A DNA stretch of 64,000 nt from Craspedostauros australis (taxonomy: Eukaryota > Bacillariophyta > Bacillariophyceae > Mastogloiales > Achnanthaceae). Under the pieces are notes generated by a model. That model saw nothing but the letters and a program-made list of their open reading frames with translations, did no database searches and was not told where the DNA came from. Both the position numbers and the translations under genes were made by a program. Positions 2,862-58,131 of this stretch are shown here, in pieces (position 1 is the first letter of the stretch; every line of letters begins with the position of its first letter). The stretch covers positions 930,001-994,000 of the forward strand of contig JAMXDE010000011.1 of assembly GCA_026770025.1 (NCBI GenBank), read 5' to 3'.

Positions 2862-4196
2862 TCAGTCCTCCCCCTCCAGATAGTACTGAGGCCTTGAATT
2901 GCGACCAGCGCTGCGTGGCGAGGCATACAGGTTGTCCTCTTCGAGACCTGATTCAGATTCAAAGATGTCAAAGATCTCGTCATCCTCGGCGAGCAGTGCC
3001 TCCATCTCAGGCCGGTTCAAGTACGGGTAGTCGCCGACCCAGCAGCCAGCGTCCGGTATCATGACGTCGGTGAGGCCGGCGAGGTTGGAGAACGATGTGA
3101 ATGGGCTCAGCAGGATGCAAAGGACGGGCATGCCAGGGAATATTTCCAGGTACTGCTCCATCATGCGCGTGTGCACCTGCAGCTCCCTGCCCTGCGTGTC
3201 AATCAGGTTGAGCCGCAGCAGATACGGCGTCCCCGCCCACCTCTTGTACTCGTCGGCGTTGACATCATAGTCGGCAAACTCGTCAAGGTCGTACTGCACA
3301 CGTGACGTCTCTTCCTCGACGATGCAGACATTGTTGACCCTGCCGACGTAGAGCGATCCGTACAGACCAGGGCTGGTGCGTCGCGCGGTTCCGTCGTCGT
3401 AGCTGAAGTCGTTGAATCCATCGTAGTATGCGTCATCGCTGGGGTCGCTTCCATCCGAGACCCACGGATCCACGAGCTCTCGTCCTGCCAACAGCTGCCA
3501 GTTGCGCTGACGCGCCTTCAACTCGGGCGACAGTATACCGTAGAATGCAAACAGACCGCCCATGAGCGTCGCCACGAAGCTTCCAAGGACGAAGCTGAGG
3601 AAGTAGCAGAAGATGACGCCGAGGAAGCTGATGGAGGCAGACTCTAGCAGCTGCTCGAAGCGATCTTGCTTTGGAGTACGAGTATTTGCAGCATCGAGTT
3701 GTGTGTGCGTGTGTGTAAGGTTGCATACAAGGTCATGGTTGTGTGAGAGGTATATGAGTACATTGGAATAGAATAGAATAGATGACATAGAATGAAGCAG
3801 CACAAGAGACTACGACGGATTGGATGATGGCGTGAAGGTGCGCAGCATAGGCCATAGTACTCTACCAATAATCTAAGTTCGCATGGATCCGCTCACCTTG
3901 GATATCCCCCAGTACGCCCCGTATTGATCTCCGGATGGAGTGCCCGTGACGAGGTACCGCTCGAGCTCATCGACAGGCAATGGGACGAGGGCCATGCCCT
4001 GCCGGAATGTTGCCTGGCGTTGCTGACATCGGGAACACGATTTGACGAAGCCATCACGGATGCGCCCCTTCCCAACAGCGGATGTTGCTGGAGTCCATGG
4101 GATGAAGCCACTGCAATTCGGAGGCGTGCATAGCAGCAGCAGAAGTAGAAAGAGGGGAGAGATCCGCCGCTTCGACGTCAAGGACATCATGTTCAT
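2862..4196 (-). CDS. Predicted plastid-targeted membrane protein, two exons
   Basis: Exons are complement 3897-4196 and 2862-3668; the 228-bp intron runs 3669-3896 with donor GTGAGC and acceptor AG, phase 0. The spliced protein has 368 aa. The N-terminus has a Leu-rich signal peptide (SPLFLLLLLLCTPPNCSGF) ending at a Ser-Gly-Phe site and then a basic, hydroxylated stretch, as in bipartite plastid presequences of diatom-type algae. Exon 2 begins QDRFEQLLESA and carries two closely spaced hydrophobic segments (ISFLGVIFCYF and FVATLMGGLFAFYGIL). A soluble acidic domain with many Tyr and Asp follows. SPELKARQRNW looks like a conserved block. I do not recognise a named family. The splice junction joins the reading frames cleanly, which supports the model. 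The gene converges on the glycosyltransferase, with 98 bp between the stops. Confidence 0.7.
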
Positions 4197-4327
4197 GGTC
4201 GGGGCTCAGTGATGGGATTGTGAACATGGACAATTGCGGTTGCGTGGGCGGGGCGATTGTTGGTGCGAAGCATGGTTAGCCATCAATCGCCTGAATGAAC
4301 TTCTTATGATCGCCGTTTCACAACAGC

Positions 4328-4399
4328 GTCTCCTTGGTCTAGAGGTATGATTTCTGCTTTGGGTGCAGAAGGTCCCGGGTTCGATTCCCGGAGGGGACC
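4328..4399 (+). tRNA. tRNA-Pro (anticodon UGG)
   Basis: The 7-bp acceptor stem GTCTCCT/AGGGGAC pairs with one U-G. The anticodon stem TCTGC/GCAGA encloses loop TTTGGGT (anticodon TGG). The T arm CCGGG TTCGATT CCCGG is perfect and the discriminator is C4399. The B box GGTTCGATTCC is intact. There is no intron and no encoded CCA. A short T run (4403-4406) follows as the Pol III stop. Confidence 0.95.
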
Positions 4400-4922
4400 C
4401 TCTTTTGTTTTAGCTGAAGCCAACTTCGCGGAAATGTTGAGCTCCCTTTCATCACTCTGCCCGAGCGTTCATCCAAACAGTCTGTCTCTTTTGTCATCGA
4501 TCGACGAGAACCAGAGATGTTGCCATGCACTTCCGAGAGCCCCGCAACGTGGTTTCCTCGAAGGAATCCTTTTAGTTGGAGGCATCCAAACTACTGAGGT
4601 TGCACAGTTGCTATCAAACGACGCAGCATTCATCTCATGAGATGCCGCTTCCGTCCCGGGACTGTGGCGTCGACAAGGCTGAAGGGAGGGAACAGCACCT
4701 GGAACTTCTCACCGCAACCCTGACGCGAAGATCTGAAAAGGTTTACTCCATGAGATCTGCGGTCCTATTCGCACGAATCATTCATGCTCAATTCCTCTAC
4801 ATGTCCTGACACAAACAAGCACAGCACAACGATTGTCATTGAAATGGAGGACCAGGAAGGCAAAACGCAACAAAACCGCCATCTTGATTCTTGTACCGAA
4901 AAAACGCACATTTTGTGAACGA
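4400..4922. other. Spacer between two tRNA genes
   Basis: About 520 bases between the tRNAs. Only overlapping short frames without recognisable motifs occur. I see no gene here apart from the Pol III T-run just after the Pro tRNA. Confidence 0.6.
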
Positions 4923-5008
4923 GCATCTATGGCCGAGCGGTCTAAGGCGTTGGGCTTAAGACCCACTGTACACACCAGTACGCGAGGGTTCAAATCCCTC
5001 TGGATGCA
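4923..5008 (+). tRNA. tRNA-Leu (anticodon UAA)
   Basis: The acceptor stem GCATCTA/TGGATGC pairs throughout with one U-G. The D arm GCCGAGCGGTCTAAGGC is typical of type II tRNAs. The anticodon loop CTTAAGA gives UAA. A long variable arm (around CTGTACACACCAGT) and T arm GAGGG TTCAAAT CCCTC complete an 86-nt Leu tRNA. The outermost anticodon-stem pair (T-C) appears mismatched. TTTT at 5010-5013 is the likely Pol III terminator. Confidence 0.93.
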
Positions 5009-5279
5009 CTTTTCGCTTTTGGTCAGCTTGTTTGACTCATTCGATTGCTTTTTCCATCTTCCTGCCCACGTTTCCACAGAGATAGCAATGTGGGAGCGCT
5101 GCCGGTACGCACTAATCATCATGGCAAAGCGTGTCGAGAAACAGGCCTCGGAAGACAGCAGACTGCTCTATATTACGAGTACTCATGGTCCATCTACCGT
5201 ACGTGTATGCATACGAAGTAGTCGAAAGATGCGATTGAACCATAATTCCAAAGCCTAAATCATCAAGATGATTGCTGCA

Positions 5280-6239
5280 TCACAGGTATCGCCTCGTCTC
5301 GAAGAACTTCCTCCAGTACAGCACTTGCCCTGTCGCAATTCCCATCACCAAAAGCATCTCGAGTATGCTCCACCGCTGGATGCGAGACAGAATGGACAAC
5401 GTTAGCGCTTCGTACTTTCCTTCTCTGTTGCGCATGAAGTCGAAGTGATCCTGCAGCAGATCCCACTCATCCGTTAGCGTGCGGGCCGTCCGCATCACAC
5501 GCATCACGCGATCGCTGTCCGGACCCGATTCGTCCTCTGGGAGGTTGCGGAGAATCGATCCCACCCGCAGATTGAATCCGATCTGCATCGCTCCTGTCTC
5601 TTCTGCTCTATTTCGGTTCTGGAAGCAGAGGGAGTACTTCTCCGATCCCTCTGTCTCGAACAGGAAGAGTCCCTGAGTGCGTCCCCTCGGTCCCTCCCAC
5701 ACAACATGCCCCGTGCGCGTTTCGAGCAGCACGACCTTCAAATCGTCTGGATTCATGTCATCGTCCACGACATCGTAGGTTCCGCTGTGAATCGTTGTTG
5801 CCGTTCCGCAGGATGGATGCCCAATGTTGGTGCAGTGTTCAATGTCGACAGTGCGTTGGAATGAGGTTGTGAGAGGAAGGGATGGGCTGCGTGCGCAGTT
5901 TACGAAGTATCGTAGAGCATACTGCACTGCAACACAATGCAATCAATACAGCATGAGCAGGAGTATATAGAGTACACCTCCATTTCGCTTCATTTCACTT
6001 CCACCAACATGAAGCGCTGAAAGATGCAGCAAACGTCATCATCATGATCATCATCTTGGTCACGCAGATGCGCAGATTCTCACGTACGCCAGATTGACAG
6101 CCCATGCTGGTGTGACCACGTGATAGCATTCTTCCGACTTTGGGTTGACGCTGATTGTGTAGGAGGCGTCTATCGTTGGCAGCATCGCCAGCACCACGAC
6201 GATGGCAGAGCAAATACGCGATATCATCGTCGTAATCAT
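5280..6239 (-). CDS. p24/TMED (emp24/gp25L) cargo receptor, two exons
   Basis: Exons are complement 6088-6239 and 5280-5784; the 303-bp intron runs 5785-6087 (donor GTACGT, acceptor CAG, phase 2). The protein has 218 aa, the usual p24 size. It has a signal peptide (SAIVVVLAMLPTIDA), then a GOLD domain beginning YTISVNPKSEECYH, with DVVDDDMNPDDLKVVLLE and a second Cys in KYSLCFQNR. Next come a coiled-coil stem with alternating Arg/Leu, one transmembrane helix (ILEMLLVMGIATGQVLYW) and a short cytosolic tail FFETRRYL. The tail has the diphenylalanine plus dibasic pattern bound by COPII and COPI coats. The role is ER-Golgi cargo sorting. The start used is the ATG at 6239, which puts the signal peptide at the N-terminus. 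Confidence 0.9.
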
Positions 6240-7181
6240 CTTGACTTGCTTGCGATTGTTGATTGATTGCCGATTGCGCTCCGGTTCGCCGCGACTTTTT
6301 GTGGTGGTGCGGCGTCTCTCTTGTCTTTCTTCGCCATCAGTCTCTGTCGCGGTTTGGGTTTGGGTTCTTGTTGGTGTCGTTGTTGGATCTTGTTCTCCTT
6401 GTTGTCTCCGCCCAGCCAAAACAGAGAGAGAGGACACGGTCATCTTGTGTGTGCGAGTGTCGAGATCCAAAAGAGCCTTTTTCAGTACACCCAGATGCCG
6501 TGAGAAATATCGAGATCGTTCACGACGCGACAGAGGCTTCCAATCGATGTACCCTACGAGCTACATTCATGACCTACGAATATATAGAGAGAGGCCGTAG
6601 AAAGAGTCCGACAACCAAGAAGAATACTATTTATGAAGCATGTGTAGTGAATGCTCCGTGCTAGAGTATACTACTCTCCTGAATTCCTGACAACGCCACG
6701 ACCTGTTCTCGATTAGTGCTGCCCTTTGCTGGTTCGTTCATCGGAGAGCTGATCTTCTTCCATCCATTATTGTGGACTTGGGCATGGTATGTTGATCTTG
6801 TGCTAGTTTGTGGGACACAGCCTTGAGCGTTCAGAGTGGATGCGGCATCCATGCAATAATGCATCCGATTCATGAAGCTTCCTTCTCGGATCGTTGTCTC
6901 AGGGATGGTAACTGTGTGCATTCCAAGGCTTCCCGACTTCTGTACTCACCAGAATCCCTGCTGTGTGGATATTTGTACTCGTACGTCCCATGCTTATATC
7001 CATGCCCACGCTCGTTGATGTCCTGTACATCCTCGCACAGTCAGCATCACTCGACGATATCGTGTGACAAATGGACATGCGATTGTTTTGCTGCTTCGCT
7101 TCTTTGCGGATGAACGGTATCCACTGTCACAGGTGGATCAACATCGCAGGACGCGCAAAATCACCCCGACAGTGAACTTGT
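6240..7181. other. Intergenic region upstream of the p24 gene
   Basis: About 940 bases between the p24 start codon and the stop of the HIG1 gene. Open frames here are short, Cys/Ser/Arg-rich and without motifs. It should contain the p24 promoter and the HIG1 3' UTR. No RNA gene or repeat was recognised. Confidence 0.5.
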
Positions 7182-7915
7182 TTACTCCTGTGCAGCATCT
7201 CCACCAGACGCAGCAGCCTCCGCCTCGAGCTTCTCCTGATGCTTTTTGTACTGTTGGTATCTTGGAGCGATTTCGACATTGAACGAACCGACTCCCACGT
7301 ATCCGATGAAAGCAAGCAGAGTGGCGAACTGTGCGCCGACGCGTGCTCTCATCATCTTCTGCGCTCGTCTTGTTTCGCGATTCTGGAAGGACTTGATGCC
7401 GGATCCCAGGAAGTACACTGTGGCGATGCATCCGATGGGCACCAACGGTTGCTTGGTGAACTGATGGTATTCATTTGCGGCGGTGTTGTTGTCAGTGTTG
7501 TCAGCAGTGTCGTTGTTGCGATGATGAAATTGGTGTAATGCGAAGCAATCCGATCAAGGGATGGAGTTGACGATGGTGATGGATGTGAGGTTGTCATCTG
7601 TGGTGAATGATAGCGTGCATGCCAATACTCTGTGTGCAGTTTGTCCAACACGCGGATCATGGAAACACTGCACTGAACTGTATTGCATAGCACATTGGAA
7701 TGCAATGATATGCCATACAATGTGCTTCCCGTAAGATGTAGCGTCAACGAACATACCTTGTCAAAGAGCTTCTCATCAAATGATTTCTGCCGCTCCATGG
7801 AGGGTGGCTTTGCGATGTAATCCTCCGGATTGTACGGCGCTTTGGATGGGTCGTTGCTTTGGCATTTGGTGGTGTTGGTGGTGGTTCCACCAAACGTGCT
7901 CTGAATTGATCCCAT
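7182..7915 (-). CDS. HIG1-domain mitochondrial protein, two exons
   Basis: Exons are complement 7757-7915 and 7182-7460; the 296-bp intron runs 7461-7756 (donor GTATGT, acceptor CAG, phase 0), giving 145 aa. Across the junction the protein reads KLFDK then FTKQPLVPIGCIATV, the start of the HIG1 fold. Two transmembrane hairpin helices follow (IGCIATVYFLGSGI and ATLLAFIGYVGVGSF), separated by a basic loop RRAQKMMRARVGAQ like the QRRARQ-type motif of Rcf1/HIGD proteins. The C-terminus is charged and helical. The family sits in the mitochondrial inner membrane and helps assemble or modulate cytochrome oxidase and respiratory supercomplexes. The 53-aa N-terminal extension is Thr/Asn-rich and not conserved-looking. 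Confidence 0.88.
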
Positions 7916-23568: not shown

Positions 23569-23834
23569 CCACTTCCCTTCACCACACAGAACACTGTGCG
23601 CACAAGAGAAAACGCTTCGCTTGGCGAAGTTCGGATCTGTCTGTTTCGGACATTGTCAGTGCCCTTTTGCAACGAATACTTGTTTGTCTGTCAGTTTGTG
23701 TCACAGCCGGATTATCGTCGGATGAGTCGGACACTCATCAAACCAAAAAGATACTTTTTGGGAGCTCCGCGCCAAACGCCTCAACAGTCGCCAACAGAAA
23801 GATCGTTGTGCTATCGTCGTACCCGAAGCCCATA

Positions 23835-23884
23835 CTACCTCCAGGTCGCAGTTGATGCACTCACGATAACACTAGTTGTGGAGT
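23835..23884 (+). repeat. Left terminal inverted repeat of MLE-1
   Basis: Bases 23837-23884 are identical over 48 nt to the reverse complement of 33359-33406; the outer two bases are CT here and CG at the other end. Preceded by TA at 23833-23834. The inner part contains CACTAGTTGTGGAGT. Confidence 0.85.
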
Positions 23885-24588
23885 TTTGGCCCCTTGTTGT
23901 CACTGGTTTGCTTGCTTTTGGGAGAAACGGCGATTGGATATTTAGAGCTATTGTGTGTTTGCTCTCGCTGATCCGTCTTCTACGTCACAGGGAACGTATT
24001 CCACGTCATGAGAAACGAGTCACAACAGAGGAAGAGACATCGTGTGACTCTTCCTCTGCAAGACAACGTGATGACTGTGCGAAGCAACAACAGAATGTGC
24101 CAGGCCAGGACAGCCAACAACACTCCACGTTGACCAGTCTCACAATGGAAACCAGCAACATCCAATCGTCTCGGAATACGACGAAGCGCATTGGCGATCT
24201 GTACGACGCAGATGACAGTGCTTCGCCAATCACCACGACATCGTCTTCACCTCGGCTGCCAATCCTGTGAATGATGCATGCACAGCTCAGCCAATCCACT
24301 TTCTTGCCACTGTTGCTGTTTCCATTTTTCTTCTCCGATAACATGCGGTGCGCACATGATCAACTTGGTACGGTATGCATCCTGCGCAACCGTGCAGCAC
24401 GATCCTCCTGCATGAATGCCAAGGCGCAAGGGACAACATCAACACAACCAAAAGTACCAATCCAGCCACGAGTGTGAAGGAGCCTCGAAGCAAATACGAG
24501 CAATAGTAAACCGCTCGTCCAAATTCGAGAGGAAAGAAACAGCATTCCAGCAAACCACAACCAAGCAAAGATCACGTGGAAACCGAAG

Positions 24589-27311
24589 ATGCTCAACTTC
24601 AAGGCAGTTACCATCACGGCGATCTTGCTCGCCGAATGCAAGACGATCGATGCCATCCTTTGCGGCCATAGATTGATTGACCCAACCAACGAACTTCATA
24701 TTGCGATGCAGGCAACCAGACTGCTGAAGGGCGACGGCGGTTTCATTCCAAAGAACGTCAAGGGTAACAAACAGACGGGAGCACCGTCCAACAATCCAAG
24801 CAGCAATCCCAGTGTGGCACCAACCAGTTCGCCTACCAGCTCTCCTACATTGGCACCAACTGCGTTGGCCTGAATAATGACGACAACACCGACTTCTACA
24901 CCAACCTTGCCACCAACTGGGGCACCAACTTCAAGGCCAACTGGGCGGCCAGTTGCCTTGCCGACCAGCAATCCAACCCTGAGGCCTACCTCATCACCGA
25001 CCGACCAGCCAACAGGCGGAGCAACCAGCATGCCGACATCAGGGCCTACATCTGCACCGACAACCATCTCGTTTGCATTTGATTCCAGCATCTCCGTGGC
25101 CTGCGAGCCAGATGTTGCGCCGCCATGCTTTCCGCCGGAGGCATCCGAGCCGAAGACCATCATCTGCAATCCATCCAAGACATCGTACCGCAAGGCCGTC
25201 ACTGCTGTTCGAAGCACACCAGGATTGCAGAATTACTTTGCATGCGCTGGCCTCTTGACCGAGGGGGATGCGCACAAGCTATTCAACCGATATGCGTCCA
25301 GCCCCTTGCTAGCTGAGGAGCTGAAGCTATTGTCCGCCGCCGGCACCACTCTGCTCACAGCTCTCGGTGGCAAGGACATCTACTACATGTGCCAGGACGC
25401 TGGGGCTCCAAGCTGTGCAGAGGAGTATCACTGTACCAGCGCCGACGGTTACAGTTTCATGACCATTGCCACCACTGCCTGCATTGGGTCTGGATCTTGC
25501 GACAGGATGGGACAAAACACATTGGTCCTGGCTTCATCCTGTACCAGCAAAGGGGTATGCGCCGGCATGAACTCTCTTTATGTTTCCAATTGCTATGGTC
25601 CTCACCCAACATACGGTGTCACCTTCATTGGTCAACTGGCCTGCACTGATTATCTTTCCTGCGTCCTTGCTGGCACATACTCCTACAGAGACGCCATCAT
25701 ACAAAGCGGCGCCTGCGTTGGACCCTACGCCTGTGCGAGCGTTGGCTACCGCATTGAACAGTACGGGCCCAGCCGTTCCCAGAGCCACGTCAGAATTGGG
25801 TTCAACGCATGCCTTGGTGAATATGCATGCACCGCAGCACATGCGAGCGGTTACTACGACTGCACATGCACATCGTTGCCATCACCTGCGAAGATTCAGG
25901 GCAGCTTGAGCATCGGCGACAATGCCTGCGCCGCAGCCTACGCTTGCCCGGGATTGGGATTCGGTGACTCAGTGACAACTGACATCATTGTGCCAGACTA
26001 TGGCTGTGACAGCAGCGGCGCATGCTACGAATGCATGACAAAAACCAACTGCGACAGCGACGAAGTCTTCATTATCTACGATGCTGCCGTCGCCTGCCCC
26101 AAAGACGTCGATGGCGACCCAACCAGTGAAAAGAGTCGATCAATTCTGCATCAACAAAGACCAACGCCCAACAGATTGCCCAACTTTCGCCCCCTTCTCC
26201 GCTGGCAAGCGATACCCCAACGATGATTCCGACAGAGCAGCCATCCGATCTGTCAACTTTTGTTCCAACAAACTCCCCAACCATCAACAAGACCACCCTG
26301 CAGACCCTTTGCTTGAATGAGGCTGGGGAGGTTACTGCAGGCTTCACCTCCAGACAAGTCGTCCTCTGCGATGATGATGTGGGCACATGCGCACAATTCG
26401 TCAACGACAACGAGTCTCTCCCAACGAACAAGGACAGGTTCGTGAAAAGCATCTTCGGATGCGATGACGACCAAGGCAGCCGGACGTCGCAGCAACAGGC
26501 GCAGGTACGATTTGATCGCATCAAGAATGACCCCCAAGCAATCGCAGCCATCCTCACTGCTCTCGAAGGCGATGGCATCCTTCTCACTGCGAACGCCGCA
26601 AGCCTATCCACGAGATGCGGTGCTGTGGGCGGGGCCTGCCGCTGAGGAACTCTCGGTTGGACTCTCAGGGGCGACATCATCATCACCCTGGACTCATGTG
26701 CAAGTGATAGTTCCTGCGAAGAGGTTTCGAAGGATGCCATCATCCTCAGCAGCTGTCTGGGACCAAAATCCTGCAAGAATCTTGGATCTTTTTCCAGCCC
26801 TCCCAGTGCCACGGCCACCATTGGCTACCAGATCATCGGGCCAGCCGCATGAACCAGCACAAACAGCTGCGAGAATCTTGGGCAGAACATCTATGGTAAC
26901 ATCCGGACCCAACACGCAGGATGAAATGGCGGGGACGGCTGCAAAGGCCTTGGAATTTGCGCCGACCAGTCTCCCAGTATCGCCACACCTACGCTTGCCA
27001 ACATCGACGTGGGGATGAACGCTTGTGAGGGACAACGCGCTAGTCAGAATGTTCACGCTGGCCCGTTCAAGACTCTCGGTTGTATCACCATCGGCAGTGG
27101 CACATGCTTGTCACAAGACAGCTGTAATGGTGTTGCAAACTCCAACTTGGCGGTTGATGATCTGGTCGTGGCGGCGAACACCTGCGCGGCTCCAAGCAAC
27201 TGTCAGGACTGCGTGGCGACAGACATGTGCAGCGGCTCTCCTGGCCGGACCTACATCATCGACAGCCCATCCAACGACTGCCCTGGACAAAATAACGATG
27301 CATGCTCTTGA
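24589..27311 (+). pseudogene. Pro-Thr-repeat, Cys-rich secreted-type protein gene with in-frame TGAs and a frameshift
   Basis: One frame runs 24589-26226, interrupted by TGA at 24871-24873. A weak signal-like N-terminus (KAVTITAILLAE) leads into a linker of PTSSPTxxPT units (about 24780-25065), typical of stramenopile surface proteins. A Cys-rich domain follows (about 25085-26110) with repeated Cys-x5-Cys patterns (ACIGSGSC, ACVGPYAC, ACLGEYAC). Around 26115-26140 the frame shifts. A second PT linker and a second, related Cys-rich domain continue in the third frame to 27311, broken only by TGA at 26643, 26850 and 26922. The two domains align end to end (both close with CxxC..C then YII/FII). 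The natural reading is a tandem-domain gene that has decayed. Readthrough or recoding is the alternative. It lies between the MLE-1 ends. No enzymatic domain is seen. Confidence 0.65.
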
Positions 27312-28636
27312 AAAATGAAATGGCAGACCGCACTCTCAGGGCGCGAACAGGAGTGGGAGTACAAACATCGCGACATGTCCACATGTACGCCCATGCTCAT
27401 ACGGTCGCATCTTCCGCAGCGGCAAGACAGCATGGATGCGATCCATATTCAGAACGAATGGCTCAACTCAACTCCATCGTTGCATATGGCACGATGATCG
27501 AAGAATAGAATACATGTTACAATACAGTCATGGAACAATCGTTTGCATCCTGTGCTGTGCTGCGCCTTGCCAGTTGTGCATTCTCGTACTTCCATGTGCT
27601 AGTATAGCATGATATGGTACCTTTGCCCATGACTTCAAGGGAGCATATCCGAAGATGAACCACACAACTTGACTACAGTTTCAACCACTCCGTCCAGACA
27701 TCCATACGAGTGCACTTGCGTTCTTGTCGTACAACTCGTCGAGTATTCTAAACTTGTCTTGTTCGAGGCCAGCTCAGCGAGGAAACGTTATGTGCGAACT
27801 AAAACGAAGACTCGGTGATGCCACGTTTGGTTACCCAGAACGTCTGTATCTGCAGAAGGGGGCGTCCTGCGTGTTCGTCTTCAGCACGCAGACGACGGAA
27901 TAGCTCATCGAATGTAACATATTATAGGAGCTGCACTAGCACATCACAACATAGCATAGTATAGCATATGAGCATGGTATGGTGTGGATTCGTTGCGCTC
28001 TACTCTACTCTACTCTACTCTACCAATACATGACGATTGTGCTAGTGGCAGCGCCGTCGGCAGGGCACGAGCAGAGATGAATGATCAGAGGATGCATCGT
28101 TGGTGCTCCAGTGACGAGTACAGACGCTTGGACTTGATGGCAGCAACGATCGCGAGGGTTGCACATGTGTGATGAAGAGAAAGCGGAATACTGGCATGGC
28201 ACGATGTGGTACAGATGTACGAGTGCGGTACCAACCAAGAGGAGGCTTTGCCATTCGATTGGTTTGTGCGACACACACCGATTGTGCTGGCGCTCCGATC
28301 GACGCAGTTGAGGCCTTGGAGCGTTTTTGTGTGTGGTTCGGATGGAAATTTTCCGACCAGAACGGCACAACACAACGTGCCGGCTCCACGACGCGATGGC
28401 TCCACGACGCACACCATTCACGACACAAAAATACGGTCCGCGTCACACAATTCACACCACTCGTCACAAAACACAAAACAAACATCACACACCACACCAC
28501 ACCACACCACACCACACCACACCACACCACACACCACACATCACAATCCTCCATGCCATCAAACAGATGATGTGCACACAGGCACTCCAATCACAGGTGT
28601 GCCTATAACATATAATACTACTACTTCGATTTGCAG
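27312..28636. other. Non-coding spacer inside MLE-1 with simple repeats
   Basis: About 1.3 kb between the Cys-rich gene remnant and the transposase stop. It contains (CTCTA)n at about 28001-28022 and (ACACC/ACCAC)n at 28486-28540. A hairpin occurs at 27611-27649 (GATATG paired with CATATC). No gene is supported; open frames here are translations of the simple repeats. Confidence 0.5.
28486..28540. repeat. (ACACC)n microsatellite
   Basis: About ten near-perfect ACACC units just 3' of the MLE-1 transposase gene. Confidence 0.85.
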
Positions 28637-31183
28637 CTACATCTCTGCTGTGTTGGTATCCTGCTCTGCTTTGCTGTGATGCTCGTCCTTGCCAACGAAC
28701 ATGGCCACTTCGAATGTGTTCATGGTGGGTGCTGCTTCGGCTTTGCTGTTGTTGTTGCGAGGCTCAATGATGTCGGCTTTGCTCTTGCTGGGTTGCTTCT
28801 TTCTCTTCTCGTCTTTCTTCTGTTGCTCAGCCTCCTCGTTGGCTCTGGTTGTCGCAACGATTTGCTTCTCCAGCAACGGAATGAGGCTGCTGGTTGTTGG
28901 CAGATTCGTTTTCAGGCACTGCAGTCCACTGACAGCCATCACCTTGAGCGCATCATCGTACATACCTTTGATGTCGGGCTTGGCGTATTTGAAGTCAGCT
29001 GATTTGCCTTTGTTGTCTGTTGCAGTTGGTTTGTTGGTGGTCGCGCGGGTAGCCTCATCCTCCTCCAACACGAAGTCCGTGTGAGACACGGTAACGCCGA
29101 TCTTGTTGCCCTCTTTGTCGAATTCCGTGGACGTTTGTTTCCGCACATTCATGTGCAGTCCCTTGCGCTCCGTCACAAATTCGTCACCTCCTTTTGCAGC
29201 ACAAATTGCGTAGGCAATCTGATGGTGGCGAACATACGCGCTAGCCACCTTGTCCAGCTTGAATTGTTTCCAACAGGTTCCACAAGCATTCCACAATGCC
29301 TCAGTGGTAAGCAATCGGCTTCCATGGTGCTCACCTTGATACGCTGACACGTGTTTTGACATCGCTGGGAATATCGCATCGTCTTTCATATTCGTGATGG
29401 GAGAATTTGGTGGTTGCAGTCGTAAGTGCCATCCGCGACTGTCGAACTCCTTGTTGATGAATCTAAGTAGCTCCGTGTCTCTGTGTGGCCCTGCGCCATC
29501 CATCTGGTACCGAATCACCACGTTCTTTCCGGTTTCGGCCTTGATTTTGCTGGCGAGCGAATCCAGTGCGGGGAGTTCTTTTTCGCGGAAGAATTTCTTG
29601 AGGCTGTACTTCGGCTTGGGCTTAACACGATGACCATCTGTTTCCTTGCTGCCCGTGATTTCCAGTGGTTGGAAGTACAGTTCACCCTTCTTGCGAGAGA
29701 TTTTCTCGGGATCAGGAAGGTGCTTGTACTTGGTCGGCGAGACCCAAGTTCGCTTGTACGTGGTCTTCTGCGCTCGGACCATGCGCCCAACACGTTCGAA
29801 GTTCACCTTATACGCCTTTCCTCCTTTCGCAAAACAGTTATTTGTTGGGGCAAATGCTGTTGATGCAATTGCCATGGTCTTGTCAATGTGACACTTGTGA
29901 TGCACAGTCTGCTTCACAGGCTTAACTCCCATCTGGGGCACATGTTTCAGATGCATGCGAGCGACAATGGAGTAGAACCACTTTTCGTCCATGTGGACAA
30001 GGACAACTTGCGTATTCTCAAACAGCTCAGCTGATTCCCAGAACACACAGAAGTCCTGAGCCCAGATGTCGCGCTTTGCTGTAGTGGTGCCATTGATCAG
30101 AGGGAGTATTGTTGTAGAACGGTACTCACTGCCTTCCAATCCCATGACGAATTTGCGAATACACTTCGGACCAACGACTTGCGGGTTTCCGCTGCCTGCC
30201 AGTTTCCATGCAATTCTGTCCCACGAGATTGCGCCATTGCACCGTCGCAACACATCCTGGAGCTCAAATTGCAGGAAGGGACCACGCTCCAACCACAAAT
30301 CAGCCAGCACTTTTGCGGATGCCAGCTCTTCCGGCGAAGCAGAGGCATAGGCAGAAGCAATTTCGTCGTTCTTGAACTGTTGCTCTGGATGTCGAAGACG
30401 TAGTTGTTTCTCGAAGGCTGCGCGCTGCGTGAAGTACTGTCGTTGCTTGATGGGGCAGGTGAAGATGCTGCTGCCTGCGTCACTTCGCTTCTTGCATTCG
30501 AGCGTCTCCGTTTGGAATTTCACAATGTTGCGCCCCACTGTGGTGCGGTTGATACCCCATGCATGGGCGATCAACTCTGCATGTTCAGGAATCCCACCCA
30601 AATTGAAATAGAGAACAGTGTAGTTCCAATTGTCTTCTTTGTCAAGGCGCTTGCTAAGATTACCAGGCTTAGCAATACTATGCCCTCCATCCTTTCGCAA
30701 CCATCCTTTTGTTTTCGCGCCTTTCTTCATCTGGTTCGTGAGCTGGGCGATTGCTGTTGCTTTCTGACGCCGCGAGACCTCGAGAAAAGCGGCGATTTTG
30801 GCTTCTTGCGATTCTGTGGTAGTTGGGGATGGTGTGGGGGGCTTAGCCTTGTTGTTGACACGCGTGGCAGCGACGGAGTGATGCTGGGGAGAAAGGAGGG
30901 AAGGCTTAGCAAGGCCTCCAGCAGTGCGAGTCCGTGCGAAGGTAGCGAGGCTGTGTGGTGTGCACAGATCCTCGCGAACAACATACATTCGGCTCTGCCC
31001 CATCACTGGGGTCACCATGACCATTGCCACCTCTCCTGGTGCAAGAGGCCCATTGCGTTTGACTGTAGCGCCGTCCGTGGTCTGCTTCATTGCAAAATCA
31101 ACATGACATACGCCCAGGTCATGGACCCTGCCGCTTGAGCTCTGGTGGGATGCCACCTTCACACAGTCACCAGCGCGCAGCAT
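28637..31183 (-). CDS. MLE-1 mariner-like transposase, intact
   Basis: An uninterrupted 848-aa frame (ATG at 31183, TAG stop). Plant-type mariner transposases are roughly half this size. Residues 1-100 form an extra N-terminal region shared with the MLE-2 copy (YVVREDLCTPHSL versus YVVPESMCRVCNM). An HTH-like region follows (AELIAHAWGINRTTVGRNIV). Catalytic motifs: first Asp in VVLVHMDEKWFYSIV, second in RYQMDGAGPH, third in QPPNSPITNMKDDAIFP. By my count 38 residues lie between the second and third Asp, judged by the residue also kept in MLE-2. The Lys-rich C-terminus (EKRKKQPSKSKAD) may be a nuclear signal. The enzyme would cut and paste between the TIRs at TA sites. Intact length suggests recent activity. 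Confidence 0.85.
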   Translation of the reverse strand: MLRAGDCVKVASHQSSSGRVHDLGVCHVDFAMKQTTDGATVKRNGPLAPGEVAMVMVTPVMGQSRMYVVREDLCTPHSLATFARTRTAGGLAKPSLLSPQHHSVAATRVNNKAKPPTPSPTTTESQEAKIAAFLEVSRRQKATAIAQLTNQMKKGAKTKGWLRKDGGHSIAKPGNLSKRLDKEDNWNYTVLYFNLGGIPEHAELIAHAWGINRTTVGRNIVKFQTETLECKKRSDAGSSIFTCPIKQRQYFTQRAAFEKQLRLRHPEQQFKNDEIASAYASASPEELASAKVLADLWLERGPFLQFELQDVLRRCNGAISWDRIAWKLAGSGNPQVVGPKCIRKFVMGLEGSEYRSTTILPLINGTTTAKRDIWAQDFCVFWESAELFENTQVVLVHMDEKWFYSIVARMHLKHVPQMGVKPVKQTVHHKCHIDKTMAIASTAFAPTNNCFAKGGKAYKVNFERVGRMVRAQKTTYKRTWVSPTKYKHLPDPEKISRKKGELYFQPLEITGSKETDGHRVKPKPKYSLKKFFREKELPALDSLASKIKAETGKNVVIRYQMDGAGPHRDTELLRFINKEFDSRGWHLRLQPPNSPITNMKDDAIFPAMSKHVSAYQGEHHGSRLLTTEALWNACGTCWKQFKLDKVASAYVRHHQIAYAICAAKGGDEFVTERKGLHMNVRKQTSTEFDKEGNKIGVTVSHTDFVLEEDEATRATTNKPTATDNKGKSADFKYAKPDIKGMYDDALKVMAVSGLQCLKTNLPTTSSLIPLLEKQIVATTRANEEAEQQKKDEKRKKQPSKSKADIIEPRNNNSKAEAAPTMNTFEVAMFVGKDEHHSKAEQDTNTAEM

Positions 31184-33358
31184 GCTTGCGAGGTGAAGAG
31201 TTCAGTGGTTGCGGGATGATACAACTACGTCCAATGTTGGTGAAGGTTGATAGAACTGTGTTATTGTGTGTGCTTGTTTGAAGTGATGGTTTACAAAGTT
31301 AAGTTTGTTGAGATTATGAGCTCATCAATAAGAGCTCATCATCTTCCTGTTTTCTACTTCTTGGCTCCACTAATGGTGCTATTCACCATTGTCCATCGTG
31401 TTGTAACCATGCCAAACTTCTGGTTACTCTTGCTAATTAGTGTATCTGTGTCCAAACATGTGCAATGACACATGTTTGGAGGTCTAATAGAGTCTCTTTG
31501 ATCCTCTTGGATCATCTTCCTAATTTTGTCTTGGGTCTGAAACCCGCATCACATTTTCCGAATTCTTTCGAGTAGTTTTCTTGGATCTTTCGAATCGAAG
31601 TGTGATTGACACAAAGGACTCAAAACTCGAACAACGATTGGATTGATTCAGCACACATGGTCTAACAACAAGGGAACTCATGGTGAATACTAGCTGTGTG
31701 TCAATAGAGGTTGCAAGCTGATTGTACGAGATTGGCTGGTCGCGACGCACACCAGGCACACAAGGAGAACAGCACAGCACAGCACAGCACAGCACAGCAC
31801 CAGTCATTGACGCGCAGCACGGCGCAGCGCACCACAGAACGGCATGGACAACACAGGAGGATGGTCACAAGGTGCCTTGTACCATCCACTCTTTCCTTTG
31901 TGGGAAGGTCACAGTCATTCTACATTCTGTGTAAGCTATGACTACAAGCAGCAGAGAATCAACAGCAGCTCGTCGCAGATGCGCAATGTTTCCGTTGTCC
32001 ATTTTGTGAGGAGGATTTTGTGCCTTCGCTGTGTCGTTGTGGAATGGAGGTGCAATTCGGGACTCGCAAAGTGTTCTCATTGATGGGCGCATTTGGTAGA
32101 ATTGTGGTTAATCTCCATGGCCCCCAACAGCAAAAACTGTTTGAGAACACCAAACACAACACAACAACACGACAATGGAGAAACACAACAAAACTCCACA
32201 AGCGCTGTCGAATGGCATCGACGGCACTGCCACAACCAGCGGTCCAGTGCAAGATCTGAGGGCATAGGCGGAACCGCCATGGAAAGTTTGGTGGATGAGC
32301 GAGAGCGGGATGTCATCTTGGCTTATTTGGGGCCGTGGCAGGCCCACGCGCACACGGCACGATTCGGAGGAAAATATGCTCATTGGATATGGTCTCTGCC
32401 TGGAATGCACAGGCCATTCCAACGACCATGGATGGGCAAGACGTATCCAAGAGGATACAGTTAAGATGCACACGAAGTTTGAGGGTCGGGGGTGGCCTGG
32501 AAGGTGCCCTCCGCAAGAAACAAGTGGCGGGCAAGAGTTTTTTGGCGGGTGGCGGCGGACACATCACGTGACTTCGCTGGTGATGGGTGCCATTGAAAAG
32601 TCACCCATATCGCCAAACCACCCATTCAAGATGTGTTAGGAATCAACTCAATATGGCCATGGCGAAGTATCCTGCGCAGATACGTTCTGGAAGAGGCTGC
32701 AGCCTGGGATGCACACGAAAGGGATTTTTTTGGGTGTCGGAAAAACATCATGATGGCATCATCACATGGAGGTGCACCTTTGGAGGTATGAGCGCCCCAC
32801 CCATTCTGAACACATCAGTGTGTCGCCAGAGAATGTGGGAACGCATGAGGGGCATGTGAAGGAGCTGCAAGGATCGTATCGACGAGATACGGATCCAAAT
32901 CCGAACGGCATCCGTGTCGGAATCGGGTGTTCGAAAATTCTGCGTTTCAGTGCAGGGACAGTTTGGAGTATGAGATGCGGCTATCTGCGCAGGATCTTCA
33001 TGGAGTGGATAGATGGGGGGTATCCGGAGCCAGTGTGGTGCGCAGATTGTGAAAATGCCAGGGATGATAATGATGATCATGGGTGCTGAAGGTAGGGCAG
33101 CATGGTGCCATCGAGAATTTTTTGCACCCACCACCTGACAGACAGCAAGCCAAAACGACATTAAAAATAAAGTTCATACAAATTTAACTAAGATATTCAG
33201 AATAAACGATAGCCAAGCGTCCGAATGAACTGTCTAGTTTTAATTTTAAATGGTGCGTTGTTGAGATATAACATCATAAGCAGTTGTTTGGATGGTTTTG
33301 GGTGTGCTCTAATTTAGTCTACTTTATCACGACTCATCACGAGTAAAACTCAAAAAAC
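31184..33358. other. 5' subterminal region of MLE-1
   Basis: About 2.2 kb between the transposase start and the right TIR. It contains (AGCAC)6 at 31771-31800 and, at 33264-33280, a 17-nt block also found 82 nt inside the left end of MLE-2. Frames up to 137 aa are present on both strands without motifs. It should contain the transposase promoter. Confidence 0.6.
31771..31800. repeat. (AGCAC)6 microsatellite
   Basis: Six perfect AGCAC units in the MLE-1 5' region. Confidence 0.9.
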
Positions 33359-33408
33359 ACTCCACAACTAGTGTTATCGTGAGTGCATCAACTGCGACCT
33401 GGAGGTCG
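33359..33408 (-). repeat. Right terminal inverted repeat of MLE-1
   Basis: Reverse complement of the left TIR (48 of 48 plus one mismatch in the outer two bases). Followed by TA at 33409-33410. Lies about 190 bp upstream of the beta-galactosidase start codon. Confidence 0.85.
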
Positions 33409-33599
33409 TAGTAGTAGCAGTAGTATCACACACATCAACGAACGTATGACGCCTTTGACGCGTGGCATCATTCCATTCACCAGACCTGCCTCTCAGAAAT
33501 ACGATTGTACATCCAACAGGACATCGTCGTTTGCTCGTATCTGCGCCATTGTTTAGGAAACGCATCGTGGAGAGGCAGCGATTCTCGCGACAGTTCACG

Positions 33600-47900: not shown

Positions 47901-47944
47901 CCCTCTGTAAACTGGTAATTTCACCATGCAAATGCTAGTTGTGG
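47901..47944 (+). repeat. Left terminal inverted repeat of MLE-2
   Basis: Starts CCCTCTGTAAACTGG after TA and ends at the core CTAGTTGTGG, which MLE-1 also carries. The copy at the right end differs by four substitutions in the aligned 38 nt and by changes in the outermost bases. Confidence 0.8.
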
Positions 47945-49541
47945 ACCCCACTTCGGGATTCTGTCGTACTTTGCGGACAAATCACAACTAATCACGACTC
48001 AAGCTCCAAACCAGCCTCAGCAACCCCTTATGATGCTATATCTATACACCAACTCAGTTAAACCATAAACTGAGCATACCATGTGAATACCTGACTGTCA
48101 GTGATAGTGAATATCGAACTTAAAAAATAAATAACTTTAGTTTCAATACCATTTCGGTCCGTGATATCGCATGTTGTCACATCGAAAAACTCTGTGCGAC
48201 ACCCACCCACCCCCACTTCACGGTCCATGACCATGCCCTTCCTCGTCATATCCATCGTATCTGAGCACCCCATCGCCTCTGTATACTCCCATATCCATCG
48301 TCTGGGCACGTGTTCGACTCAGAAAGTCCATATCCATCTCCCCAGGTTGCGATTTCTGGAATTCAGGATTTCCAAAAATGGACGCAAACTCCAGTCCGCC
48401 TTCCTGCAACCAAGATATCTCATCCATCCGACCTTGTTCACCACCACCACACAGCATTCCGGATCCAGTAGGCTTCAGGAAACACAATGGTGCGTCCAAA
48501 AGCACTCGCAAGTGGATATCCATGACGGGCAGCTTGGTTCTGCACTTGTCACCCTCGAGTTTTTCAATGTCCCAAAATTGACCATCTGTCTTTGGCGGCA
48601 AGAGCGACCGCATGTCGCAATGCTTCCGGCGCACACACATTGCTCAATCAACTCTCCAAGTGATTTTGAGTGCTTCTTTCATGGGAGAGTTGTCCATTTG
48701 GTGGATGTGTGGCGTGCCACTGGTGCCCAAAGGAAGGGCATCAGGCTCTGTCACCACCTCCAAAAACTCTTGTTATCCACTTCTGCTTGTCGATGACGAC
48801 CTTGCCGCTGCTGGATGGACGCCAAACTTTGTGGGTACCTCCAATATGATCCACTTCGTGCATCTTGCGCATCAATAGTGGCTGGAATGGTCTGTGTCGA
48901 TCATGCCGCCTCTGTATCTTGAAAGGGCATGTTGAGTGCAAATGACCTTCCTGTTTCTTTTTGCTATATCTCCCTCCATTGGCAGGGTATACATTTGAAG
49001 CCTCACCCATCAACCATATGAAGCACAGCGGATCCACTGATGTGCTTGGATGTCTTCATGGAGGCGTGATAGTTGCGGCCCATTCAGCGGCTGTTGCTGA
49101 GTGTTGTTGTGAGACGCCATTGTCATGTCGTTGTGTGTGTTTTGTTGTTCACATCGTTGGGGTTTGCGGAAGTTGACCATGTTTCAGACGAATACATGCA
49201 CATTGACGACTTCGATTTTGTTCTTCGCGGTGGTGTCGAGTGCGTTAGAATGACATCGGGTTCTTGTTCCATCGTTCTTCACAGAACATTGCTTGTGGTC
49301 GCACGAATGATGAGGTTTGGACGACCAGCAGGGCAATCGGAACCTCTCCAACCTGCTCTCTTGTTGCTGCAATCGTTGATGCTTTTCTGCGGCCATGTGC
49401 TGTGGGAACATGACCATCATGCTTCTACAGGCACTGTGTGCCTGCGATATTCCTTCGTTGTTCACATCTCTGTCATCATCAACAAAATCGTGCACACACA
49501 CACACCAACCCAAGCCATCATTCCATCTTTCATTCGCCACC
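47945..49541. other. 5' subterminal region of MLE-2
   Basis: About 1.6 kb before the transposase start. It carries the 17-nt block CTTATGATGCTATATCT (48027-48043) shared with MLE-1. The right half (49395-49541) is a CA-rich leader. A 211-aa frame at 48161-48796 has no motif and is not supported as a gene. Confidence 0.6.
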
Positions 49542-52192
49542 ATGATCCGTATTGGTATTGGCCAATACGTGGAGGTGGCTCCCCATGTCTCCAACGGCAA
49601 GTACTTTAATCTGGGCATGGCCTTCATTGTCGGCCTGAGCAAGACAGTAAAGAATAGGAATGATGAATACGCGGACAGAGGCGATGAACCCCTTGCAGCA
49701 GATGAAGAGGCCTTCGTGAAGGTGAATCCTGTTCTCTCGCGAGATCATTGCTACGTCGTTCCAGAGTCAATGTGCAGGGTGTGCAACATGGAGGCTCTGG
49801 CAAGGGCAACCAAACAGGAACCCAGTGACGCCTTTCCATTACCGTCGTTGCTGTCTCCCGACCATCACTCTGCCGCCGAGCTCCGCAACCTCACGACTGC
49901 AGCTCCCAGCGCCACCCAGAAAGAAGCAGAGAAACCGGAAATAACGCCAATCCGACGCCTTCTAATACGTTGTTTGGATGACAAGGCCGAAGTGCTGGCC
50001 GATTTGCAAAAGCATCACAACGACATGAACAAAAGGGGTTGGTTGCGGACGGTTGTAGGCAGCAGCGGGCAAACAGCACCAAAAGGAAAGAAGCATCTGG
50101 ATGAGGAAGAGAAAGACAACATCGTCAAGCTTCGTCTCATCCTTGGCTCACCTCCCTTTCTCATCAGTTGCATTGCGCATGCATGGGGTGTAGACAGGAG
50201 CTGCGTTTCGCGCGTGTTGAAAGATTTCCGCGAAGGCAATACGGAACGGAAGAAGCGCGATGACGCTGGGCTTTCTGTGTTCACGAGCACACGCATACAA
50301 GCTCAACACTTCACAGCTCGGAAAGCCTTCGAGAGGATGTTGCGTGCAGACAACGCTGGGCAGAAACTGAACAAAGAATACATCGACATGGCCTTCACCA
50401 ATGCGACAACGGACCAAAAGAAGGCTGCAGAGGACCTTGCGAAGGAGTGGCGTGACCGTGGTCCGCACCTCCTGAGCGATCTTCAACGGGTGTTGCAGAG
50501 GTCCGGAGGAGCCCTATCCTGGCGGGACATTGCAAGCGAGATCGCGGGAAGTGGAAAAGTGCACATTGTCAGTCCCATGTCCATCCGAAAGTTTGTACTG
50601 GGGCTCGAAGGCAGCAAGTACACATCCACCAAAATCCTCCCCTTCCTCAGCAAAGGTACAGTGCAGAAGCGCATCGATTGGGCCAACGAGTTCTGCATGT
50701 TCTGGGAGTCAGCAAAGCACTTCAAAAACACGCAAGTGATTGTTGTTCACATGGATGAGAAGTGGTTCTGGTCGATTGTCGGATGAAAGCACATCAAGTC
50801 CGTTGAGAAATTGAAGGTGAAACCAGTTGTGCACCATTGTCAACATCGCAACCACTTGGTCAAGACTATGGCCATTGCTTCTTCCGCCTTTGTGCCCAAC
50901 GACAACTGCCTCGAGAAGGGCGGAACGGCGCACCTCTTGAACTTCGAGCGAGTTGGTCATTGGAAGGTCGCGATGAAGGATTCGTTCGGCCGCGTCTACG
51001 ACAGCAGGGGCAACTACAAATGCCCACCAACCCCAGAGAACCGCTTGAGGAAGAAAGGTGAGCGCAGGTGGCAAGCGCTGGAGATCACGGGGACCAAAGA
51101 AGAAGTGAACGGCAAGAAGAAGTTCAGTCTCAAAAAGTACTTCGAGACCTCGGAGATCCCAGCCATCCAAGATCTTGTTTCCAGAGTCCGCGGAGACAAC
51201 AAAGAGATGCGAGTCGTTGTTCGCTACCAAATGGATGGTGCGGGCCTCATCAAAACCAGGAACTGCTGGAGTTCATCAACGAACGGTTCAAAGGCCTCGG
51301 TTGGCATCTCCGCATTCAACCTCCAAACTCCCCAATCACCAACGTCAATGACAACTGCGTCTTCCCCGTATTGTCGCGTAATGTGTCATCATACCAAGCC
51401 AGAAACCACGGAAGCAACATCATGTCGTCTGAAGAATTGTGGCAAGCTTCCCTGAAGTGCTGGGAGCACTTGTCACTCAAGACACTTGCCACTGCCTACA
51501 TTCGTCATCACCAAATTGCTTACGCGATCTGTGCCTGCAAAGGCAGCGACAAGTTCGTGACGGAATCCAGAGGGCTCAGGATGAACGTGACCAAGAGGCA
51601 AGTCCCAATGAAAGATGAAGATGGACAAGTCATCGGCGTGGAGTACACCAACATGGAATTGGCACGCCCAGTGCGGGATGAAACAAAGAGCGACAGCAAC
51701 AAACTGAAATACGAGAAACCGAATGTGGAGGCCACTCGCGAGCAGATCCTTCAGAAGATGAGCGTGGCGGAATTGAGCTGCATCGAGCAACACCATGGGG
51801 AACTCTGTGACGCTGAGAGAGAGGAATTGGCTGCCATGATAAAAAAGAAAGTCGAGCAACAGGATATAGATAGTAGGCAACCTGCAAAGGCCACCAGCAA
51901 GAGGAAGGGCAAGGACGGAACGAAGACAACATCGAGGCCCTTGAAGAAGGCGAAGACCAGCAGCAACAACACCACAGCAAAGGCAACTGCAAAGGACAGC
52001 AGCAAGAAGGCAGCAGCAAAGGCAACCGCAAAGTGCAGCAACAAGAAGACTGCAGCAAAGGCAACCGCGAAGGACAGCAGCAAGAAGACCACAGCAAAGG
52101 CAACTGCGAAGCCATGCAAGAGCGAGGGAGTAGTCACAAGAGCGCGAGCAACAGCCTTCCGGTTGAACGGCCGCAAGAGAGTCAGCATGTAG
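49542..52192 (+). pseudogene. MLE-2 mariner-like transposase, disrupted
   Basis: Homologous throughout to the MLE-1 transposase, starting at ATG 49542 (MIRIGIGQYVEVAPH). The HTH-like region LISCIAHAWGVDRSCVSRVL and the first catalytic motif VIVVHMDEKWFWSIV are intact. Two breaks follow. TGA at 50784-50786 replaces what is Arg in MLE-1, which fits a CGA-to-TGA change. A single-base deletion at about 51241-51246 falls directly after the second catalytic motif RYQMDGAG. The downstream frame 51250-52192 keeps QPPNSPITNVNDNCVFP with the third Asp. The C-terminus has tandem Lys/Ala repeats (AKATAKDSSKK and variants, nt about 51960-52115), a likely nuclear or DNA-contact tail absent from MLE-1. Inactive as it stands. 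Confidence 0.85.
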
Positions 52193-52283
52193 CCGCTGCA
52201 TCCCGAAGAAGTAGAGAAATACGATACATTTATTAGCATTTCGTAGAACAACAACAGATCATGCATGTGTGTTGATGGTTGTG
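52193..52283. other. 3' subterminal remnant of MLE-2, left of the Copia insertion
   Basis: Ninety bases after the transposase stop, ending at the Copia target site. The sequence resumes at 58132. Confidence 0.6.
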
Positions 52284-52288
52284 TGTGA
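52284..52288 (+). repeat. 5-bp target site duplication TGTGA (left)
   Basis: TGTGA directly precedes the left LTR and recurs at 58127-58131 directly after the right LTR, proving the element boundaries. Confidence 0.9.
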
Positions 52289-52451
52289 TGTCAAAGTGCA
52301 CAAGTAGCTACTATAGACGTATTGGTCTGTTGTTGCGTGCCCTGGCCGGAGCTCTTGTTCTTATTTGTGAGTTGTCCGAAGACAATCCCCCGACCAGTAT
52401 ATTGACTAATATGATTTGTAAAGAGGTAAGAAGGTACAGAGAAAGTTGTCA
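52289..52451 (-). repeat. 3' LTR of the nested Copia element
   Basis: 163 bp, from TGTCAAAGTGCACAAG to AAAGTTGTCA on the plus strand. The RNase H frame stops at its boundary (TGA at 52449-52451). Confidence 0.93.
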
Positions 52452-57909: not shown

Positions 57910-57962
57910 GGTGGTTGGTATTGTAATGTGAAAAGCTTGGTGGTAGATCACAACTCTTAATC

Positions 57963-58126
57963 TGTCAAAGTGCACAAGTAACTACTGTAGACGTATTGGC
58001 CCGTTGTTGCATGCCCTGGTTGGAGCTCTTGTTCTTTATTTGTGAGTTGTCCGAAGACAATCCCCCAACCAGTGTTTTGACTAATATGATTAGTAAAGAG
58101 GTAAGAAGTTACAGAGAAAGTTGTCA
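57963..58126 (-). repeat. 5' LTR of the nested Copia element
   Basis: 164 bp, the partner of 52289-52451. Transcription runs leftward. The bases just inside (57962 leftward, GATTAAGAGTTGTGATC on the minus strand) should hold the primer site, but I could not match them to a specific tRNA. Confidence 0.93.
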
Positions 58127-58131
58127 TGTGA
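58127..58131 (+). repeat. 5-bp target site duplication TGTGA (right)
   Basis: Identical to 52284-52288. MLE-2 sequence continues from here. Confidence 0.9.

Follow-up and report, generated by a model that had tools for sequence, protein, structure and literature searches.

The locus described here raises the question of whether a gene enclosed between the ends of a transposon travels with it as cargo and whether the cargo can change. It lies in a 64,000-nucleotide stretch of the genome of the diatom Craspedostauros australis (contig JAMXDE010000011.1, positions 930,001 to 994,000 of the forward strand), hereafter called the window and numbered from its first base. A sequence-only reading had proposed that a 9.6-kb mariner-like transposon in this window carries a gene for a surface protein with Pro-Thr (PT) repeats and abundant Cys, i.e., a PT/Cys gene, as cargo, a proposal that followed from the position of the gene. 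We find that the interval 23835–33408 is one mobile element and, beyond the earlier proposal, that the slot occupied by the PT/Cys gene has a different content in related elements of the same genome, which carry either N-acetylglutamate synthase (NAGS) or PCMT-like sequence. We put at roughly 80% the probability that this is an autonomous, recently active Tc1/mariner-type transposon, with a transposase of the DDD (three-aspartate) type and a cargo slot in which an ancestral NAGS gene was replaced and the PT/Cys gene has decayed.

The copies analyzed were excised from the organism’s own genome (74.8 Mb, 90 contigs, designated C and a number). They comprise the window element; 20 further units of ~9.6 kb (L009–L028), which together with the window element are called the recent copies; three additional related copies (L029–L031; 7.0, 7.2, and 9.3 kb); three older copies (L032–L034), one without a right end and one without a left end; and L041, a 3.7-kb piece from C43 that does not extend to any element ends. 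Elements with PT/Cys cargo are referred to as type A, those with NAGS as type B, and those with the start of NAGS followed by PCMT-like sequence, sampled by L041, as type C.

Termini, Recent Copies, and an Empty Target Site

The element is 9,574 bp long (23835–33408), begins with CTACCTCC, ends with GGAGGTCG, and is flanked by a TA target-site copy on the left (23833–23834) and on the right (33409–33410). The same ends, with TA on either side, are found in 24/24 units, i.e., the window element and L009–L031. Inverted-repeat comparison and end searches of the genome delimit a left terminal inverted repeat (TIR) at 23835–23887 (plus strand) and a right one at 33356–33408 (minus strand). With the TA included, the two arms (23833–23887 and 33356–33410) are 55 nt long, 96% identical, and separated by 9,468 nt, an inverted repeat far above chance. 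The 48-nt perfect repeat reported earlier, with TA-flanked copies 9.5 kb apart, is real: the arms pair without a mismatch over at most 48 nt, starting at base 3 of both ends, and the TA flanks are present. The two ends recur ~9.6 kb apart at many sites. Queried against the genome, the left end matched at least 42 times (37 left ends, five right ends; best 40 of 123 candidates scored) and the right end at least 40 times (best 40 of 141); one further genome search scored the best 40 of 146 candidates. In the older copies L032 and L033, the left end shows a few differences inside the TIR.

The 21 recent copies, all type A, differ from one another at 0–93 positions over ~9.5 kb aligned. A core of 12 copies lies 2–21 differences apart, and the window element is closest to L022 (30 differences). 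In 21/21, the ends are 9,449–9,667 bp apart and enclose both the PT/Cys gene and the transposase region, and the flanks are mutually different except in one pair, L010/L011. That pair (C75:2639–22019) stands head to head, ~51 bp apart, with two differences between its members. Genome-wide, ~30 of at least 32 type-A matches at 99% identity or more represent separate sites (best 40 of 116 candidates), rather than 32, as contigs C61 and C75 share one junction (L004 compared with L005). One of these two contigs may be a haplotig or an overlap.

The flanks of 12 of the 24 sites, and most of those of one more, were joined and used to search for empty sites (1,531 bases; best 40 of 90 candidates). 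For L012, the joined flanks match 118/118, uninterrupted and with a single TA, at six or more loci, and at 96–99% at no fewer than seven further loci; this copy had inserted into a repeat whose other copies stay empty. For the L018 and L020 sites, junction-spanning matches reach 92% and 87%, respectively. The L017 site gave a less clean match of 93%, its two flanks resembling each other. Because the copies share the whole unit and the L012 empty site is exact, the PT/Cys gene is cargo of a 9.6-kb transposon, in agreement with the sequence-only reading, which had also suggested looking for the gene between other copies of the TIR.

Four larger copies, of 17.6–18.8 kb, were also seen (C54:240812–258937, C42:306934–325007, C16:1109342–1126965, and C17:1160827–1179611). 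By their coordinates, the extra DNA lies inside the PT gene (C42), between the PT gene and the transposase (C54, C16), or right of the transposase (C17). Since its position varies, we read these copies as probable nested insertions and do not favor larger moving units.

The Transposase

The transposase gene occupies 28637–31183 on the minus strand, encodes 848 amino acids, and ends in TAG. Its open reading frame (ORF), of 848–850 aa, is open in 20/21 recent copies and broken in L011. Between diverged copies, the ratio of nonsynonymous to synonymous substitution rates (dN/dS) is 0.32–0.43, calculated for the window element, L018, L030, L031, and L034, with L029, L032, and L033 omitted for their broken or partial ORFs; for the window element and its near-identical relative L018, the ratio is 1.0 on nine differences. 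The protein contains the motifs HMDEKWF, QMDGAGPH, and PPNSPITNMKD (PPNSPITNMKDD), which we take to resemble those of plant mariner transposases, at a spacing of DD(162)D(38)D, the three Asp being D399, D562, and D601. The third Asp was picked by its N-x-x-D motif, which leaves 38 residues between the second and third Asp. A literature search for such a motif in published work found none. The TA target-site duplication (24/24 units, and a single TA at the L012 empty site) and the short TIRs are Tc1/mariner features, and the placement as a mariner is supported by these and the DDD motifs, not by a profile or fold match. The 848-aa protein is probably the active transposase of the element.

The PT/Cys Cargo Gene

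The cargo gene of the window element (24589–27311, plus strand), delineated from ORFs, Pfam, and copy comparison, consists of two PT+Cys units and is broken. A Pfam scan detected the PT repeat at 1.1e-6 and DUF7640 only at 0.14. The lesions include in-frame TGA codons at 24871, 26643, 26850, and 26922 and a frame change between ~26140 and 26223. Thus, of the surface-protein gene previously described on the strand opposite the transposase, the ORFs and the plus-strand position are confirmed, but the gene is not intact. The PT/Cys gene is present in 21/21 recent copies as well as in L031–L034. All recent copies have it broken: TGA 24871 and TGA 26643 occur in 21/21, TGA 26850 and TGA 26922 in 20/21, and the frame change falls at ~26.15–26.22 kb. 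In L020, a tract at ~26848–26987 matches the older L031 and L034, not the near-identical sisters, and is free of the two TGA stops located there.

L031–L034 do not have the 24871 stop, and on C13 the frame around the PT/Cys match stays open for 919 aa, so a gene with introns, as opposed to a broken one, is not favored. Similarly, the reading of TGA as a sense codon is not favored, as TGA ends 13 of the 20 mechanically called ORFs of at least 300 aa in the window. The internal PT/Cys stops of the excised copies are all TGA; TAG stops in three older copies are known from genome search results. Because CpG sites account for 33 of the 97 singleton changes that distinguish recent copies, decay from CGA to TGA is plausible for some of the stops. 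Among four old copies, dN/dS is 0.35–0.78 for part A of the gene and 0.40–0.76 for part B, and the differences by codon position (42/41/59 and 43/35/55, respectively) show a mild third-position excess, without a significance test; together, these values are weak evidence of past constraint.

A protein search of the genome with the PT/Cys cargo returned at least 46 matches at 76–100% identity, followed by at least 67 loci at 45–50% (best 113 of 430 candidates). The 67 listed loci have open frames of 538–1520 aa, and none of them (0/67) has a transposase listed on either strand at a distance of up to 16 kb. Because these relatives stand away from transposases, the cargo appears to be of host type, as had been proposed, and its membership in a host family, as a distant member, is supported by sequence. 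A donor copy elsewhere had also been suggested as a check, and the matches listed include no close one. Proteins with the DUF7640 Cys repeat form a large family in this genome, with at least 180 matches (best 150 of 358 candidates) on many contigs (e.g., L035 and L039), and some members are found near light-harvesting genes on C2. Light-harvesting sequences gave 61 matches in the genome (81/81 candidates scored). Compared with the PDB, one of these had long multi-domain LHCI chains of 9vfj as its top matches, followed by a fucoxanthin chlorophyll a/c protein as the best chain with a single domain, which fits a photosynthetic alga, probably of the chlorophyll a/c type.

Alternative Cargos in the Same Slot

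In L029 (C64) and L030 (C38), which are 7.0–7.2 kb long and have the ends of the window element, a different segment replaces the PT/Cys gene. Both match the window element over the left 334–363 bp, over element positions 4074–7386, and from element position 7906 to the right end. The common left region (23835–24197, plus strand) is 89% identical over 334 bp in L029 and 91% over 363 bp in L030, and may be a shared 5′ region of the cargo genes, conceivably with a promoter role. The right non-coding part (31740–33355) is conserved at ~89–90% between the window element and L029, L030, L031, and L032. Between these blocks, a ~520-bp segment (31221–31739) is found in the recent copies and L034 and is largely absent from L029–L032.

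The type-B segment encodes NAGS, with matches to NCBIfam NF003641 at 1.7e-54 (kinase-like part) and 7e-59 (GNAT part) and to PDB entry 2r8v at 1.5e-30 and 3.9e-22. In L030, Pfam AA_kinase (1.2e-8) and GNAT (2.1e-8) were detected; its two parts were scanned apart, and each scores less than the NCBIfam cut-offs for the whole protein require. L029 and L030, the two NAGS copies read, have lesions, and dN/dS between them is 0.41. Further copies on C52, C33, and C72 have a 617-aa stop-free frame around the match to the NAGS kinase part, the part queried there (search results; 35/35 candidates scored). The host-like NAGS on C8 is only 39–43% identical to that of the element. A candidate intron-bearing NAGS donor at C11:537746 was dropped, the protein search there giving only 55 aa at 64%. 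NAGS-like sequence (88%) also occurs at C24:208198–209445, inside an open frame of 891 aa. No convergent transposase is listed close to it, and it may be a domesticated copy, a relict, or an old element.

The type-C piece L041 contains the first part of NAGS followed by PCMT-like sequence (PF01135, 1.2e-8) in one 307-aa frame, which recurs at eight places at 98–100% identity. A PCMT-like match without the NAGS start (73%, 165-aa frame) was found at C2:2154972–2155256; the type-C cargo may have come from it, or it may be a relative of that cargo in the host. The NAGS protein search (35/35) and the NAGS/PCMT frame search (31/31) were scored completely, as was the search that had suggested C11:537746 (25/25). 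With 16 kb as the limit, a listed convergent transposase is found downstream of 41/46 cargos of type A, 8/9 of type B, and 11/15 of type C, one of these 11 at a distance of 15.5 kb; the counts use listed transposase matches only, with coordinates combined from several genome searches.

The window element retains a trace of the type-B cargo. A 33-aa fossil of the NAGS C-terminus, with one stop and 72.7% identity to L030 NAGS, lies at 27814–27912 on the plus strand, within a 403-bp block (27512–27914, plus strand) that is 90.6% identical to L041 and of which type B shares only the NAGS end. The ~300 bp upstream of that end, common to types A and C (element positions 3678–3975, window 27512–27809), have no match in L029 or L030. 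The NAGS C-terminal 80 aa are kept, from the same start residue, in L031–L034 (with one stop in L032) and in L041; the window element and L018 keep 33 aa, also with one stop, the rest having been lost, judging by eye, by deletion at a short ATGT repeat. Because the window element retains this NAGS 3′ scrap, the PT/Cys gene probably replaced an older cargo. The simplest order suggested by these sequences would be a complete NAGS, then loss of its middle, and then PT/Cys or PCMT-like sequence in its place; the reverse order is less simple because a partial NAGS would need later completion.

Proposed Mechanism

In the proposed mechanism, the element’s own transposase would cut at the two 53-bp ends and insert the 9.6-kb unit at a TA, which is duplicated. 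The cargo slot would lie between the left end and the transposase gene, read convergently with the latter, and cargo expression may be driven from the conserved left 363 bp. Ancestrally, the slot would have held NAGS. In one branch, the middle of NAGS would have been replaced by other DNA, including PCMT-like sequence, while in the window’s branch, NAGS would have given way to the PT/Cys-rich surface-type gene, leaving the 3′ fossil behind. The PT/Cys gene would then have decayed as the element, with its open transposase, spread to ~30 sites. Gene capture by TIR transposons is usually explained by gap repair with template switching, and faulty repair of this kind after excision may account for the exchange of cargo. 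Since the PT/Cys gene is broken in the copies that are most numerous, it seems that movement does not depend on this cargo.

Comparison with Known Systems

Most descriptions of gene capture by eukaryotic cut-and-paste transposons concern non-autonomous elements that carry gene fragments. The present family combines an open transposase with different long cargos that occupy a single position, the fossil of a replaced gene, many near-identical copies, and an empty site that is exact, so that the steps of cargo replacement can be read in one genome and the usefulness of cargo to a TIR transposon becomes directly testable. In the literature searched, no mariner report was found with acetylglutamate synthase or arginine biosynthesis. 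Titles and abstract openings retrieved for mariner with diatom, or with passenger, cargo, or captured genes, contained no such system, with thin coverage of subscription papers.

From the portions of the sources available, the nearest precedents are Fanzor-bearing mariners and Pack-Mariners. Mariners of algal viruses (PMC3627910) comprise four single-copy, virus-linked elements with nuclease, methyltransferase, or Fanzor genes; as here, they combine TA duplication, a common TIR and transposase part, variable accessory genes, and an algal setting. Unlike them, the present family resides in a cellular genome, with ~30 recent copies, and carries cell-type genes (NAGS, PCMT-like, PT/Cys) as well as a fossil of replaced cargo. 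The only two ORFs of at least 300 aa in the window element, the transposase and a PT/Cys ORF, do not match a Fanzor-type family in Pfam. Rice Pack-Mariners (PMC8903248), according to the text accessible, are non-autonomous and carry captured gene fragments. They are likewise mariner-type TIR elements with captured coding DNA that varies within the family, whereas the present element has an open transposase (20/21 recent copies), long cargo genes, and a length of ~9.6 kb. PlantMar elements (DD39D, 2–6 kb), reported from plants and stramenopiles in the part of PMC7325037 consulted, are similar in their TA, short TIRs, DDD transposase, and inclusion of stramenopile hosts. The present transposase differs in its DD38D spacing and has no profile match. 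The ciliate TBE/Tec elements, which are related to Tc1/mariner, also have extra genes beside the transposase; these form a fixed set, unlike the slot content here, which changes between lineages. Cargo differing between related elements is also known for Starships (PMC12134995 and PMC12506042), which are far larger and use a tyrosine recombinase, in contrast to the DDD-type motifs, TIRs, and TA seen here. No tyrosine recombinase appears among the Pfam matches of the scanned ORFs, although none was searched for by name. By term search, the word “mariner” is absent from the main text of a review of giant eukaryotic transposons (PMC6431247).

Weighing the Alternatives

Several observations weigh against the reading of an autonomous mariner-type element with a changing cargo. 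For the window’s own insertion, no empty site is among the matches listed. Type C was read from a piece short of any ends, so that its TIRs are presumptive, and 4/15 type-C, 5/46 type-A, and 1/9 type-B cargos are without a listed convergent transposase. Among the misses so counted are C75:9993 and C18:338507, yet L011 and L033 carry a transposase (broken in the former, a 698-aa ORF in the latter). The L020 tract could stem from exchange between element lineages, which could blur the order of replacement. The transposase spacing, DD38D, is neither DD39D nor DD34D; the length of 9.6 kb, or 7.0–7.2 kb in the two NAGS copies, exceeds the 2–6 kb given for PlantMar in the available part of PMC7325037; and the 848-aa protein has no meaningful Pfam, PHROGs, NCBIfam, or PDB match. 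The mariner-type transposase of the sequence-only reading is borne out in its open ORF, TA, and TIRs and is compatible with the motifs, but no profile backs it. Last, in the window’s MLE-2 transposase, ~43% identical, HTH_Tnp_Tc3_2 was detected at E 0.0054, below the family cut-off. These features of protein and size would also suit another or unnamed TA-targeting DDE superfamily, e.g., a pogo or Zator relative or a new IS630-like branch. We consider this improbable in view of the TA duplication and 53-bp TIRs, the three motifs, which resemble those of plant mariners, and that same weak Tc3-type helix-turn-helix. That two unrelated pieces are involved, i.e., a miniature inverted-repeat transposable element (MITE) or solo end at 23835 and a shorter mariner that happen to enclose the PT gene, could be argued from position alone in one copy. 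This explanation is already refuted, and we give it practically no weight: no family TIR near 28.5 kb ends the unit in any of the 21 recent copies, both ends occur together in each, and neither a separate MITE nor a chance TIR fits the exact L012 empty site.

The role of the cargo is more evenly balanced. The element may be a plain large mariner-like transposon whose cargo is accidental filler, functionless ever since capture, and we rate this only slightly below an even chance. Although the PT/Cys gene is broken in 21/21 recent copies, no other type was seen in larger numbers; part A of the gene in these copies shows no third-position excess (14/6/12 by codon position, no significance test); and the two NAGS copies read are damaged. 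Against inert filler stand the long frames open elsewhere, i.e., NAGS of 617 aa (C52, C33, C72), NAGS-PCMT of 307 aa (eight copies), and PT/Cys of 919 aa (C13), all taken from search results and measured stop to stop, and the dN/dS values below 1 (NAGS 0.41; PT/Cys part A 0.35–0.78, part B 0.40–0.76), part of which may predate capture. The same open frames could be cited for a true exchangeable slot, in which the ends, the left-end promoter, and the convergent transposase would serve as a chassis and cell-type genes would be exchanged, each open for a time as it helps the host or the spread of the element. We regard this as a tentative and rather doubtful idea; if true, it would amount to a small version, in an alga and with a DDD transposase, of the exchange of cargo by Starships. 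A viral rather than host origin, with cargo brought by virus-borne mariner elements, seems to us distinctly unlikely. Algal viruses do have mariners with changing accessory genes (PMC3627910, in the part available), and the element NAGS is distant from the host-like NAGS on C8. However, a search of IMG/VR for the TIR found no exact match, one for relatives of the transposase, which detects close ones only, was likewise negative, and the PT/Cys relatives form a large genome family outside elements.

Other Features of the Window

The sequence-only reading had tied the right end to MLE-2, another element of the window, through a shared 17-nt block, which was not found. The longest exact word common to the compared end regions is 11 nt, CTAGTTGTGGA, within the TIR, and exact matches between the element and the rest of the window stay below 17 nt, the longest being 16 nt at 17539. 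MLE-2 (47904–58631) has an inverted repeat of its own, 41 nt long (88%), with 10,646 nt between the arms. Its own transposase is broken, with pieces at 49560–51787 in the ORF list of the window, and a genome search with MLE-2 gave more than 80 transposase matches at 38–43% identity (best 92 of 170 candidates). By eye, the minus strand of MLE-2 at ~52.4–57.6 kb looks like a Copia-type retrotransposon.

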